57,129 nucleotides of DNA from Phycisphaerae bacterium (GTDB taxonomy: Bacteria; Planctomycetota; Phycisphaerae; Sedimentisphaerales; Anaerohalosphaeraceae). The DNA lies in contig JAAYCR010000072.1 of the NCBI GenBank assembly GCA_012729675.1, positions 1 through 57,129 of the forward strand, given 5' to 3'. Under the pieces are notes generated by a model. The model was not told where the DNA came from. It saw nothing but the letters and a program-made list of their open reading frames with translations, and ran no database searches. Below, piece by piece: positions 10,934 through 50,626 of this stretch (the stretch's first letter is position 1; each line of letters opens with the position of its first letter). Position numbers and translations under genes: made by a program.

Positions 10934-11683
10934 ATGGCTGGACATTCGCACTGGGCGGGGATTAAGCACAAAAAAGCCGCCAACGACGCAAAACGCGGAA
11001 AACTGTGGAGCAAAATTGCTCGTATGATCATCGTTGCCGCCAAGGTCGGCGGCGGCGACCCGGCGGCCAACCTGACGCTGCGCTATGCCATCGACAAGGC
11101 CAAGGCCGCCAATATGCCCAAAGACACCATCGAAAAGGCCGTCAAAAAGGGAACCGGCGAACTCGGCAACATCACCTATGAAGAAGTCCTCTATGAAGGC
11201 TACGCCCCCGGCGGCGTGGCCGTGATGGTCGAGGGGTTGACCGACAACCGCACCCGCACCGCACCGGAGATCAAAAAAATCTTCGAACGCCGCAACGGCT
11301 CGCTGGGCGCCGTCGGCTGCGTAAGCTGGATGTTCAAAAAACGCGGCCTCATCACCGTCAAGACCGACGCCATCGACGAAGAGTCCCTGATGGAAGTCGC
11401 CCTGTCCAACGGCGCCGATGATATGGAAAACATCGGCGAGTTTTACGAGATCACCTGCGCCCCGGACGCCTATGACGGCCTCAAGGCCGCCCTCGAAGCA
11501 AAGAACATCCCGCTGGACAGTGCGGAACTGTCGATGCTGCCCGAAAACACCGTGACCGTGACCGACCCGGAAATCGCCCAGCGGATCCTGTCGCTCATCG
11601 AAGAATTTGAAGACCACGACGATGTCCAGGAAGTTTACGCCAATTTCGACATCCCCGACGATATCCTCAATAAAATCCAGTAA
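10934..11683 (+). CDS. YebC/PmpR family (TACO1) protein
   Basis: A 249-residue member of the YebC/TACO1 family; members act as transcriptional regulators or translation factors for polyproline sequences. The signature start MAGHSHWAGIKHKKAANDAKRGK is intact, as are NMPKDTIEKAVKKGTGE and YEEVLYEGYAPGGVAVMVE, and the NGADDMENIGEFYEI segment. The C-terminus is acidic. GGATACGATT precedes the ATG. A strong intrinsic terminator follows, so this is probably the last gene of the cluster. YebC family genes often sit with ruvC; no ruvC is present here. Confidence 0.95.
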   Translation: MAGHSHWAGIKHKKAANDAKRGKLWSKIARMIIVAAKVGGGDPAANLTLRYAIDKAKAANMPKDTIEKAVKKGTGELGNITYEEVLYEGYAPGGVAVMVEGLTDNRTRTAPEIKKIFERRNGSLGAVGCVSWMFKKRGLITVKTDAIDEESLMEVALSNGADDMENIGEFYEITCAPDAYDGLKAALEAKNIPLDSAELSMLPENTVTVTDPEIAQRILSLIEEFEDHDDVQEVYANFDIPDDILNKIQ

Positions 11684-24411: not shown

Positions 24412-24780
24412 GTCCTGCCGGCGGCTGATTATGCGAAGCCGAAAAATCTACGGCTTGCCGGCGATGCAGAACAGATGCTTTTCCGTGGGTATCAGAAGGC
24501 GATCCAAAAGGGCGCATGTACGTCAATAAATGTGTCACTAATTGCATCGCCTGTTCCTTTAGACAGTTGTTGATTATGAGTTCCGGTTCATCAATCACGA
24601 ACAATCTGTCCCTGCCATCATACACATAATCACACTTTTACCCTACCGGGATCGACAAAACCGTTTGCCTATTCTGTACAGAGTTTGAACGGAATGCCGC
24701 AAGGCTTTGATTTAAGGAAAGTTACATAACATTTAGATCGCTGAAGATAGGGCATTAATGCCCGGGGAAAAAACTGCGCA
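24412..24780. other. Spacer without a recognised gene
   Basis: About 370 bases with no supported reading frame, repeat or RNA signature. It separates the corrinoid terminator from the minus-strand candidate small RNA. Confidence 0.4.
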
Positions 24781-24865
24781 TAAAAAAATCCGCCAGCGGC
24801 ATAAAGAAGGAGGAAAAGAAGTTGGTGAACTTCCCAGGGCTACTACCGCTGGCGGCAGAAGGAGC
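24781..24865 (-). ncRNA. Candidate small RNA with its own promoter, terminator and anti-SD loop
   Basis: On the minus strand, a promoter at 24899-24871 predicts a start near 24864. The RNA opens with GCTCCTTCTG. It is closed by a perfect 10-bp stem, CCGCCAGCGG (24855-24846) with CCGCTGGCGG (24799-24790), followed by ATTTTTTTA. Inside are a GAAGTT-CACC-AACTTC hairpin and an apparently unpaired TTTTCCTCCTTCTTT tract. CCTCCTT is the perfect complement of the Shine-Dalgarno AAGGAGG. The 5' end has a second CTCCTT. There is no reading frame of note. It looks like a trans-acting regulatory RNA, but this is from sequence logic alone. Confidence 0.6.
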
Positions 24866-24870
24866 ATATA

Positions 24871-24899
24871 TATATAGCAGACCCCTCTGAACCTGTCAA
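24871..24899 (-). promoter_or_regulatory. Sigma-70-type promoter of the candidate small RNA
   Basis: On the minus strand TTGACA (24899-24894) is followed after 17 bp by TATATA (24876-24871). It points into the 85-base hairpin RNA. Confidence 0.7.
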
Positions 24900-25083
24900 T
24901 GCTTTTTTTGGAAAAAATTAAAAAATCCGCCTCGATGTCGCTTGTTAAATCCATAAGATATTTCAAAAAATAGGCTTATGGCCAAATAACGAATTGCATA
25001 TAAAGTAAGAAATCGCCACAGAAACGGAAGATTTTCTTGTGGCCAGAACGTTTATATCGCTTTATCGTGTCACTGTCCGGACG

Positions 25084-25872
25084 TTATTTCGCCGCTTGTG
25101 CCTGCTTTAGCACCTCGAGCACCCGAGATTCAAAATGAAACGGATAGACATTGCAACTGAGGGTTTCGCCGGGAACAGCCAGTCCGTCTTTGGACAGGGA
25201 CTGACAGATCAGCTCTTTGTCCTCCGGAAATTCGTCGACGACCATTTTGATGAACAAGCGTTTGAGTGTTTTTCGCCGGTTCTTTTTTGCCAACATTTTT
25301 TCATCGCCCTCTTTGCCGGCGGCCCGAAAGTAACTGCGGATCTTCTTGAGCGTCGGCCGGTCGCCCTGAAAATACTTGTCAAAACGCTGCGAGATCCGTT
25401 CGGGCAGATATTGGGGGGCTTCGATGACCATCTTTTGAATTTCATCCGTGCTGTAGTAAAGAAACGGATCGCCGAAGAACGCGGCCGCACTGTAATTGAG
25501 CCGAAGGTCCGCCAAATATGCGGGCAGCGTCTTGCTCCCTCGCTGCGGGTGCAGAAAATCACGCGGGCCGTCGCCGACCAGAACCGTATAGCAGTAGCGA
25601 TTTAAATCGGGGCGGTTGAACCGGATGATATCGCTGTAGGCCCGCTGAAGCCGCGCCTGGGTGTGGCTGCGGACATCCATAATCAGCACCCGCGAGGTAA
25701 TGGTATCGCGGGCCAACGCGAGGATATCGCCGGGCGCACCGTCGCCGGGCGTAATCAGCTTGACGGATTCCAATCCGGGGTATTCGCCGAGCCTTTCACG
25801 AATATCTTCCAGAAGGACACGATCCATCGTGACGATATGGATCGTATTGTTTCTGTTTGTGTAATGCAGCAT
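25084..25872 (-). CDS. Conserved-looking hypothetical protein (262 aa)
   Basis: I do not recognise the family. The N-terminal 110 residues alternate beta and alpha (TIHIVTMDRVLLEDIRERLGEYPGLESVKLITPG, SRVLIMDVRSHTQARLQRAYSDIIRFNRPDLNRYCYTVLVGDGP), like a receiver or Rossmann fold without the usual phospho-acceptor set. The middle is helical (SAAAFFGDPFLYYSTDEIQ), and a very basic segment near 180-200 (KMLAKKNRRKTLKRLFIK) may bind nucleic acid. No signal peptide or membrane segment is seen. It is the third gene of a minus-strand row after topA and the GroES-like gene. The spacer upstream holds a heptad repeat. Confidence 0.7.
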   Translation of the reverse strand: MLHYTNRNNTIHIVTMDRVLLEDIRERLGEYPGLESVKLITPGDGAPGDILALARDTITSRVLIMDVRSHTQARLQRAYSDIIRFNRPDLNRYCYTVLVGDGPRDFLHPQRGSKTLPAYLADLRLNYSAAAFFGDPFLYYSTDEIQKMVIEAPQYLPERISQRFDKYFQGDRPTLKKIRSYFRAAGKEGDEKMLAKKNRRKTLKRLFIKMVVDEFPEDKELICQSLSKDGLAVPGETLSCNVYPFHFESRVLEVLKQAQAAK

Positions 25873-49144: not shown

Positions 49145-50626
49145 TTAGTAGTGTCGGTTGCGCGGGGGTGCGGCGTATGGGTGATTGATGAAGAAGTAGC
49201 GGAGTGCGTCGATGGGGTGGTCGTAGAGGCCGTCTTTTTCGGGCAGTTCGGAGGGGGATTTGGCGCCGGCGTCGGGGTAGTGGTAGCAGCGGAGGGCTTC
49301 GATGGTGCGAGTGCATCGCGGGTCGATGACCAGGCGGCTGGCGGCGTCGCCGCTGCGGAGGGCGGCGCGGATTTTTTCGATGCCCTCGTAGATGCGGCTG
49401 GAGCGGTAGGTTGCGCGAACGCCAGCTTCGGCCAGCTCGCGGACGGTGCTGGTTCCGGTGATGTCGCTGCGTGCCGAGCCGGCGGGGTCGCAATACGTCC
49501 CGGCCACGCGCGATTCGGGGCAGGGGGTGCGGCGTTTGACCTCCTCGGCGTGCTCGACGATGGGCTTGCGGCGCTGGATGTATTCATCGATGACAAACAC
49601 GCGGCCGTCGTCGTCGGCCTGAATCCACAGGCACACAAACGGATTGACGTAGCCGAAGTCGATGGTGCGGTACAGCGGCAGCGCGGGCTGGTAGGGTGCG
49701 GGCGCGACGTGGACGGCGGGGTCGAACTCGGCAAAGACAGCGTTTTCCAGCGTTGGACGCAGGCAGAGCATCTCGGCCTCGAAGCCGGCGCGGCTGCTGC
49801 GGCGCATCCGGCTGATGCAGTCGTCGATGGCCAGATAGCCGTCGGCGCGGCGGGCGATACCGCGGCAATCTCCCGATAGCGGGCAGCGGCTGCAGCTTCG
49901 GTCGGGCGGGCACGGCTCGATGACCTCCCACATACACCAGCGGAACGTCGGCATGGCGATTTCGTCGGCGCGCTGGAGGATTTGCTGCATCAGGCCCCAG
50001 GGGCGGTGGAAGGTGCTGAACATCTCCATCGCGGCGCGGAGGCCGTCGCCGCTGCGGGTGACGAATTGCGCCGCGGCGAAGAGGTCGGGGTTGAACAACT
50101 CCATCTCGTCGCAGCGGAGCTTGTGGATGTGTCGGCCGCGGATGGCGGGGGCCGATTGCGGCAGGACTTCGACCTTGGCGCCGTTGGTGAATCGGCAGGC
50201 GTCGGTCAGCAGGCGGCCGTCGAGGGCGTATGCGAAATCGTCCTGGAGAAATGCGGCCAGATAGTCATACATCCGATGGGCCTGGTCGCGCGACCCGGCC
50301 AGCAGGCGCGTTTGGCAGCCGGGCTTGAAAAGCCCTTCCAGCAGCGTAGCGACGGCGGCAAGCTGGGTTTTTCCCCCGCCGCGATTGGCCCAGACGACGC
50401 AATCGCCGTTGGCCGCCGGCGGCGCGGCAAAATCGGCGTTGAAGCTGTGCCAGAGGTAGTCCATCGGGCTGTTGTGGCCGGGACAGAGCGAGCGGTCGGG
50501 GATGTTCAGCCCCAGCTCGGCGGCAACGAATCGCCGCAGCAGGTCGCGCGTGGCGGGGCGAGCCGGGGCGGCGGGGTCTTCGGAACAGGCCGGCGCAGCG
50601 GCGCGGCGTGCGGGTGTTTTGGACAT
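49145..50626 (-). CDS. Phage-type terminase large subunit (orphan)
   Basis: A 493-residue TerL-like DNA packaging motor. The ATPase domain has Walker A GGGKT (residues 83-87) and Walker B with catalytic Glu (RCDEMEL, 171-177). The nuclease domain shows Asp323 (TIDFGYVNPF), Asp380 (TYCDPAG) and Asp473 (DHPIDALRYFF). Between them is a four-Cys cluster, C239-x5-C245-x2-C248-x5-C254, which may bind zinc or an iron-sulfur cluster. AAGGAG precedes the ATG. No portal, capsid or small-terminase gene is recognisable nearby. It may be a prophage relic or a domesticated packaging gene; its frame and motifs are intact. Confidence 0.9.
   Translation of the reverse strand: MSKTPARRAAAPACSEDPAAPARPATRDLLRRFVAAELGLNIPDRSLCPGHNSPMDYLWHSFNADFAAPPAANGDCVVWANRGGGKTQLAAVATLLEGLFKPGCQTRLLAGSRDQAHRMYDYLAAFLQDDFAYALDGRLLTDACRFTNGAKVEVLPQSAPAIRGRHIHKLRCDEMELFNPDLFAAAQFVTRSGDGLRAAMEMFSTFHRPWGLMQQILQRADEIAMPTFRWCMWEVIEPCPPDRSCSRCPLSGDCRGIARRADGYLAIDDCISRMRRSSRAGFEAEMLCLRPTLENAVFAEFDPAVHVAPAPYQPALPLYRTIDFGYVNPFVCLWIQADDDGRVFVIDEYIQRRKPIVEHAEEVKRRTPCPESRVAGTYCDPAGSARSDITGTSTVRELAEAGVRATYRSSRIYEGIEKIRAALRSGDAASRLVIDPRCTRTIEALRCYHYPDAGAKSPSELPEKDGLYDHPIDALRYFFINHPYAAPPRNRHY

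Follow-up and report, generated by a model that had tools for sequence, protein, structure and literature searches.

The minus strand of positions 24,781–24,899 in a 57,129-nucleotide stretch of DNA from a Phycisphaerae bacterium (the whole of the DNA analyzed, hereafter the window) carries a promoter-like sequence followed by an inverted repeat and a run of T. The question raised by this locus is whether it is a gene for a small RNA (sRNA) and, if so, what such an RNA would do. A sequence-only reading had proposed a regulator undescribed in planctomycetes, with tracts complementary to the Shine–Dalgarno (SD) sequence, and the comparisons described here support that proposal. Set beside its homologues, the locus is best described as one copy of a real, clade-specific, partly phage-borne and uncatalogued multicopy sRNA family of a known functional kind.

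Anatomy of the candidate RNA

The features of the window copy are as follows.

24894..24899, minus strand: −35 box TTGACA, from the sequence.
24871..24876, minus strand: −10 box TATATA, with a 17-nt spacer to the −35 box, from the sequence.
24782..24865, minus strand: predicted small RNA of ~84 nt, the 5′ end placed from promoter spacing and the 3′ end from the T run.
24856..24865, minus strand: 5′ unpaired CU tract GCUCCUUCUG (DNA GCTCCTTCTG), the proposed seed, complementary to CAGAAGGAGC.
24859..24864, minus strand: CTCCTT inside the 5′ tract, from the sequence.
24846..24855, minus strand: 5′ arm of the terminal (terminator) stem, CCGCCAGCGG, in perfect pairing with 24790–24799 and covarying.
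24836..24842, minus strand: unpaired conserved segment UAGCCCU, with ~79% mean column identity over 61 distinct copies.
24818..24833, minus strand: inner hairpin GAAGUU-CACC-AACUUC (DNA GAAGTT-CACC-AACTTC), from the sequence and the covariation of helices 2 and 3.
24807..24813, minus strand: second anti-SD tract CCUCCUU (DNA CCTCCTT) inside UCCUCCUUCU, from the sequence.
24790..24799, minus strand: 3′ arm of the terminal stem, CCGCUGGCGG (DNA CCGCTGGCGG), pairing with 24846–24855 and covarying.
24782..24788, minus strand: T7 tail of the intrinsic terminator, from the sequence, the T run being conserved in the alignment.

The promoter that had been called perfect is present as TTGACA-17-TATATA, but its −10 box agrees with TATAAT at only four of six positions, so that the window promoter is absent from the consensus-scan list. 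An RNA of 85 bases had been proposed; its site stands, but a +1 at about 24865 gives a predicted length of ~84 nt. The perfect 10-bp stem (CCGCCAGCGG/CCGCTGGCGG) with its T7 tail (24788–24782) was confirmed, as were the unpaired CCTCCTT tract at 24813–24807, which is a conserved unpaired segment across copies, and the second CTCCTT at the RNA 5′ end (24864–24859).

The covariance model matched the window RNA over 24783–24865 (E = 1.8e-19), and its fold had a z score of −4.1, with none of 200 shuffles equally stable. Homologues and covariation rule out a chance inverted repeat. A plus-strand RNA was rejected (z only −2.0 relative to shuffles, no T run on that strand), and a protein-coding role for the 77-aa ORF spanning this locus is unsupported because indels in the loops of homologues are not multiples of three. 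In agreement with the earlier statement that no known RNA family was recognized, Rfam 15 gave no match at or above the gathering threshold, either in the window or for the RNA at 20 homologous loci; a weak rimP-leader match below gathering (E = 0.24, 24965–25069) falls outside the RNA and was discarded.

Two neighboring features were also recorded. A 14-bp perfect palindrome, GGGCATTAATGCCC (24750–24763), lies ~20–30 bp past the sRNA terminator and is possibly a regulator binding site. Directly upstream of the sRNA gene is a 262-aa ORF (25084–25872, minus strand) with no Pfam or NCBIfam match.

Structure and conservation across copies

A first covariance model was made from 14 copies and a second from 73, and structure statistics were taken from a model-fitted alignment of 61 distinct copies. 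With the bias towards the structure that such fitting brings to pairing statistics, 98.0% of structure cells were paired and compensatory changes, with both sides altered, were seen in 12 of 15 pairs, a favorable outcome of the covariance-model check that had been suggested for the stem. None of 500 shuffles came up to the alignment in percentage paired or in covariation score, and in slid controls, with partners shifted by 1–3 columns, pairing fell to 42–49%. Helix 1 (the terminal stem) had 98.4% of cells paired and compensatory change in 7 of 10 pairs; for helices 2 and 3 (the inner hairpin) the values were 96–97% and every pair. Run independently on the unfitted alignment, RNAalifold predicted the same two elements, stem and inner hairpin, and 9 of its 18 pairs covaried.

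The most conserved segment among the 61 distinct copies is the 5′ tract GCUCCUUCUG (94% mean), although no pairing demands it; its mean unpaired probability is 0.98. Conservation elsewhere was 85–88% in the stem arms, 71–76% in the inner hairpin arms and 60% in the apical loop, and along most of the T run the per-column conservation was 77–97%. CUCCUU in the 3′ strand of the internal loop was present in 49 of 61 distinct copies with a mean unpaired probability of 0.82 (0.70 for the second tract of the window copy). Some divergent short copies are missing the inner hairpin or the second tract. Three short copies (L125:4001–4053, L111:4001–4056 and L112:4001–4056) retain GCTCCTTCTGCCGCC/GCCGTC together with the terminal stem and have lost the inner hairpin; two of them come after genes with PEP-CTERM-anchor-like ends.

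Copy number and distribution

The genome to which the window belongs holds four strong copies by the covariance model, and a search of this genome turned up a second copy that is 78% identical. Copies were present in 24 of 24 genomes from five genera of the same taxonomic family, at 1 to ~15 per genome (about 14–15 in G045), and in 0 of 15 genomes from the other 11 genera of that family searched with the covariance model. A phylum-wide sample gave matches in 5 of 392 genomes, all of the same family. Within the order but outside the family, a full-strength match was seen in G098 only; weak class and order matches below 34 bits were left uncounted.

Named records bearing the pattern were Sedimentisphaerales, Phycisphaerae or other Planctomycetota metagenome-assembled genomes (MAGs), so that the phylum proposed by the sequence-only reading was correct. 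The exceptions were one MAG contig labeled Bacteroidales (L164) and one Streptomyces match (L172). The former holds a genuine-looking copy with a good promoter (899–986) on a 4.8-kb contig, for which misbinning or transfer is possible; the latter is GC-rich, has no T run and was put down to chance.

Promoters and gene organization

Sigma-70-like promoters scoring at least 9/12 within 60 nt were found for 61% of 62 non-redundant copies, compared with 7.7% in mononucleotide shuffles, and 37 of the 62 had an exact TTGAC 34–49 nt ahead of the RNA 5′ end (5% in shuffles). The stem and promoter, which the sequence-only reading expected to recur in related genomes, are both conserved there, the former by covariation and the latter in most copies.

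Syntenic orthologues of the window copy were identified in two further genomes (G042.C92 and G045.C228), and all three converge on a corrinoid-protein gene. Identity among them is concentrated in the −35 box, −10 box, RNA and T run; TATA is kept and the flanks diverge. Another copy, fixed in the gap between rnhB and lexA, is common to 13 genomes (L036:4979–5062 and 12 orthologous loci). Here a TTGCAA-17-TATAGT-type pair was seen by eye in the alignment ~50–110 nt upstream, which points to a longer transcript; in the rnhB–lexA group the conserved module is probably contained within it.

Paralogues within one genome are 76–88% alike in the RNA, and their 80-nt flanks are unrelated (near shuffle level); two copies of the window's genome (C57 and C89) share some upstream sequence. 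Neighboring genes vary among copies. Taken together, the promoters, synteny and unrelated flanks argue for separate sRNA genes rather than for one repeat or an operon terminator. As far as sequence and conservation can tell, the locus has the make-up of an independent intergenic gene with its own promoter and intrinsic terminator.

The organization of the copies also bears on whether the element is merely a shared intrinsic terminator or 3′-UTR element with no role in trans, whose stem covaries because terminators must fold. The stem does close in a T run, and a few short copies lie just after genes for proteins with PEP-CTERM-anchor-like ends (G042.C40 and G045.C9). Most copies, however, have their own promoter immediately upstream and different neighbors, the inner hairpin covaries too, and the unpaired CU tracts, for which termination has no need, rank with the best-conserved segments. 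We regard this explanation as quite unlikely.

Phage-borne and mobile copies

The multicopy nature of the family and its partial carriage by phages and integrative elements did not figure in the sequence-only reading. Within the window's own genome, C57 adjoins a Sak4-like gene, C16 adjoins a tape-measure gene and a DNA methyltransferase, and C89 has an integrase 2.6 kb away. An identical copy, flanked by tail-region genes and an integrase, is shared by prophage-like G015.C148 and the IMG/VR virus contig L190, where it is complete with promoter and terminator (11051–11127) and lies upstream of the integrase. A second IMG/VR virus contig has a full copy with promoter and terminator (L189:10285–10366) alongside phage primase, helicase and exonuclease genes, and G001.C42 adjoins phage-type primase/helicase genes. 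Tandem sRNA pairs stand right after related integrases in G051, of the same family, and in G098, of another family (L118:2004–2216 and L104:1632–1888). This arrangement in two families fits horizontal transfer and suggests that the pairs were moved by an integrative element. The remaining copies have stable chromosomal settings.

Multiple copies, several of them in prophages or beside integrases, are what would be expected of a selfish or mobile (MITE-like) repeat, or of a phage attachment site that had travelled with phages. The unrelated paralogue flanks, the retention of pairing and tracts in diverged copies, and the persistence of syntenic chromosomal copies across genera (13 genomes for rnhB–lexA, three for the corrinoid-gene copy) all speak against it, as does the absence of the RNA from the phage and plasmid record collections searched, where single matches (E about 0.2, covering less than half of the query) were attributed to chance. 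The repeat explanation was therefore given very little credence.

Proposed mechanism and target search

We consider it reasonably probable that the RNA is an Hfq-independent, trans-acting sRNA, present as multicopy paralogues in one Sedimentisphaerales lineage, that blocks the SD regions of a limited set of mRNAs. Transcription from a sigma-70 type promoter would begin at or beside GCUCCUUCUG, leaving this tract single-stranded, while the stem, internal loop and inner hairpin would display the second tract, UCCUCCUUCU, and the terminal stem and U run would end transcription. The exposed tracts may then pair with purine-rich SD regions (AGAAGGAG or AAGGAGGA) of the target mRNAs and so block ribosome binding. 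Paralogues under differing promoters could allow different signals to feed one target set; copies are also located on phages and integrative elements.

SD sites are in use in the host. Its 16S tail, GGATCACCTCCTTTCT, has CCUCCUU (7 nt) in common with the second tract of the RNA, and an SD core is present in 37–39% of genes against a background of 7%; together these make anti-SD pairing feasible. Hfq was not found in the host.

Exact CAGAAGGAG-N-ATG sites were not enriched in RNA-carrying genomes, with ~75 in 68.6 Mb of carriers (self-matches excluded, sums made by hand) compared with 72 in 53.8 Mb without the RNA, and forward-to-control ratios of 2.3 and 2.4, respectively. Longer matches were few, and the best candidate, a prepilin-like gene with a 13–14-nt match in G015 and G047, was dropped, as the match is not conserved in orthologues and overlaps upstream coding sequence. 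These findings weigh against SD blockade, as do the divergent short copies and the probable longer transcript of the rnhB–lexA group. The four genomes of the window's genus have one CAGAAGGAG-N-ATG site in total, the only one in the window's own genome, before a terminase large-subunit gene in the window (49145–50626, minus strand). The terminase SD, CAGAAGGAG, just upstream of the ATG at 50626, is a perfect match to the sRNA 5′ tract and is noted as a lead only. The gene stands alone, with no other phage genes identified nearby in a non-systematic reading of the region.

That complementary ribosome-binding sites (RBSs) are not enriched would be in keeping with a decoy, in which UCCUCCUUCU and the CACC loop mimic the 16S rRNA 3′ tail and bind not mRNAs but a protein or factor (a ribosomal protein, an initiation factor, an RNase or a phage protein). 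Host 16S GGAUCACCUCCUUUCU is indeed similar to UCCUCCUUCU and to the UCACC loop that is frequent among the copies. The best-conserved tract, GCUCCUUCUG, nevertheless diverges from the 16S tail after CUCCUU, and the second tract is missing from 12 of 61 copies, so that a decoy appears unlikely.

The terminase site, along with the existence of phage-borne copies, could also indicate an RNA chiefly for phage control, with host copies silencing phage mRNAs such as that for terminase and phage copies tuning the translation of the host or rival phages. The site is a single coincidence, however; the three other genomes of the genus have none, and no convincing AGAAGGAG start sites were seen at the other prophage loci read. 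Phage control was accordingly rated as very unlikely. A broader proposal, an anti-SD sRNA family shared by Hfq-less planctomycetes and their phages through which host and phage compete or cooperate via the same seed, we put forward only tentatively; in it, the copies on phages and integrative elements would be functional versions of a translation-controlling host RNA.

Should SD blockade in trans be right, the phylum, whose sRNAs have received little study, would gain a multicopy sRNA family with evolutionary support, in a host without detected Hfq; the seed is fixed and natural paralogues are numerous. Phage-borne copies make the use of host-type anti-SD RNAs by phages testable, and the covariance model is directly usable for annotation.

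Comparison with known systems

No planctomycete counterpart of the RNA was found in the literature searched. The closest parallels in kind are the alpha-r14 or "cuckoo" sRNAs of Alphaproteobacteria (NfeR1, CcsR), which have exposed, ultraconserved, repeated anti-SD motifs on variable stems and several paralogues, NfeR1 being Hfq-independent (PMC10746234, PMC10253847). Repeated exposed anti-SD motifs, variable stem sequence and several paralogues are common to both groups. The alphaproteobacterial motif, CCUCCUCCC, is however carried in each of three hairpins; it is absent from the window RNA, which has a stem and one inner hairpin. The motifs of the window family are CUCCUUCUG, at the RNA's 5′ end, and UCCUCCUUCU, in an internal loop, and the single long hairpin containing that loop doubles as terminator. 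Processing from an operon that includes a DUF1127 gene yields the CcsR RNAs, whereas the window family mostly has its own promoters. The two groups showed no relation in sequence or through Rfam, and the homologues identified here belong to Sedimentisphaerales and Planctomycetota rather than Alphaproteobacteria.

The csRNAs of the streptococcal CiaRH regulon are a set of some five closely similar paralogues. Their effects on comC are post-transcriptional and additive, and come from pairing close to the SD and start codon of comC (PMC3091779, PMC4507080). These RNAs are streptococcal and CiaR-controlled, and the window family is of another phylum and sequence. Listeria LhrC1–5 are likewise multicopy; they block an SD through redundant CU-rich sites and do not need Hfq to bind their target (PMC4132741). 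Multiple copies (for LhrC) and CU-rich SD-blocking sites link the window family to LhrC and other UCCC sRNAs (RsaE, SprD, FsrA). LhrC differs in its UCCC motifs, its three sites in two stem-loops and a linker, and its LisRK control, as well as in sequence, phylum and layout; UCCC is absent from both tracts of the window RNA, which are CUCCUU.

Prophage-carried regulatory RNAs such as DicF, c4 and the anti-sRNA AsxR have mRNAs or sRNAs of the host or of phages as their targets (PMC12197685, PMC4104026, PMC5069750). The phage copies of the window family differ in bearing the same seed as the host copies and would thus add to or imitate the host RNA rather than neutralize it by complementarity. 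Given feasible anti-SD pairing in a host where Hfq went undetected, and by analogy with alpha-r14/NfeR1, the csRNAs and LhrC, what we best infer for this family is RBS blockade in trans.
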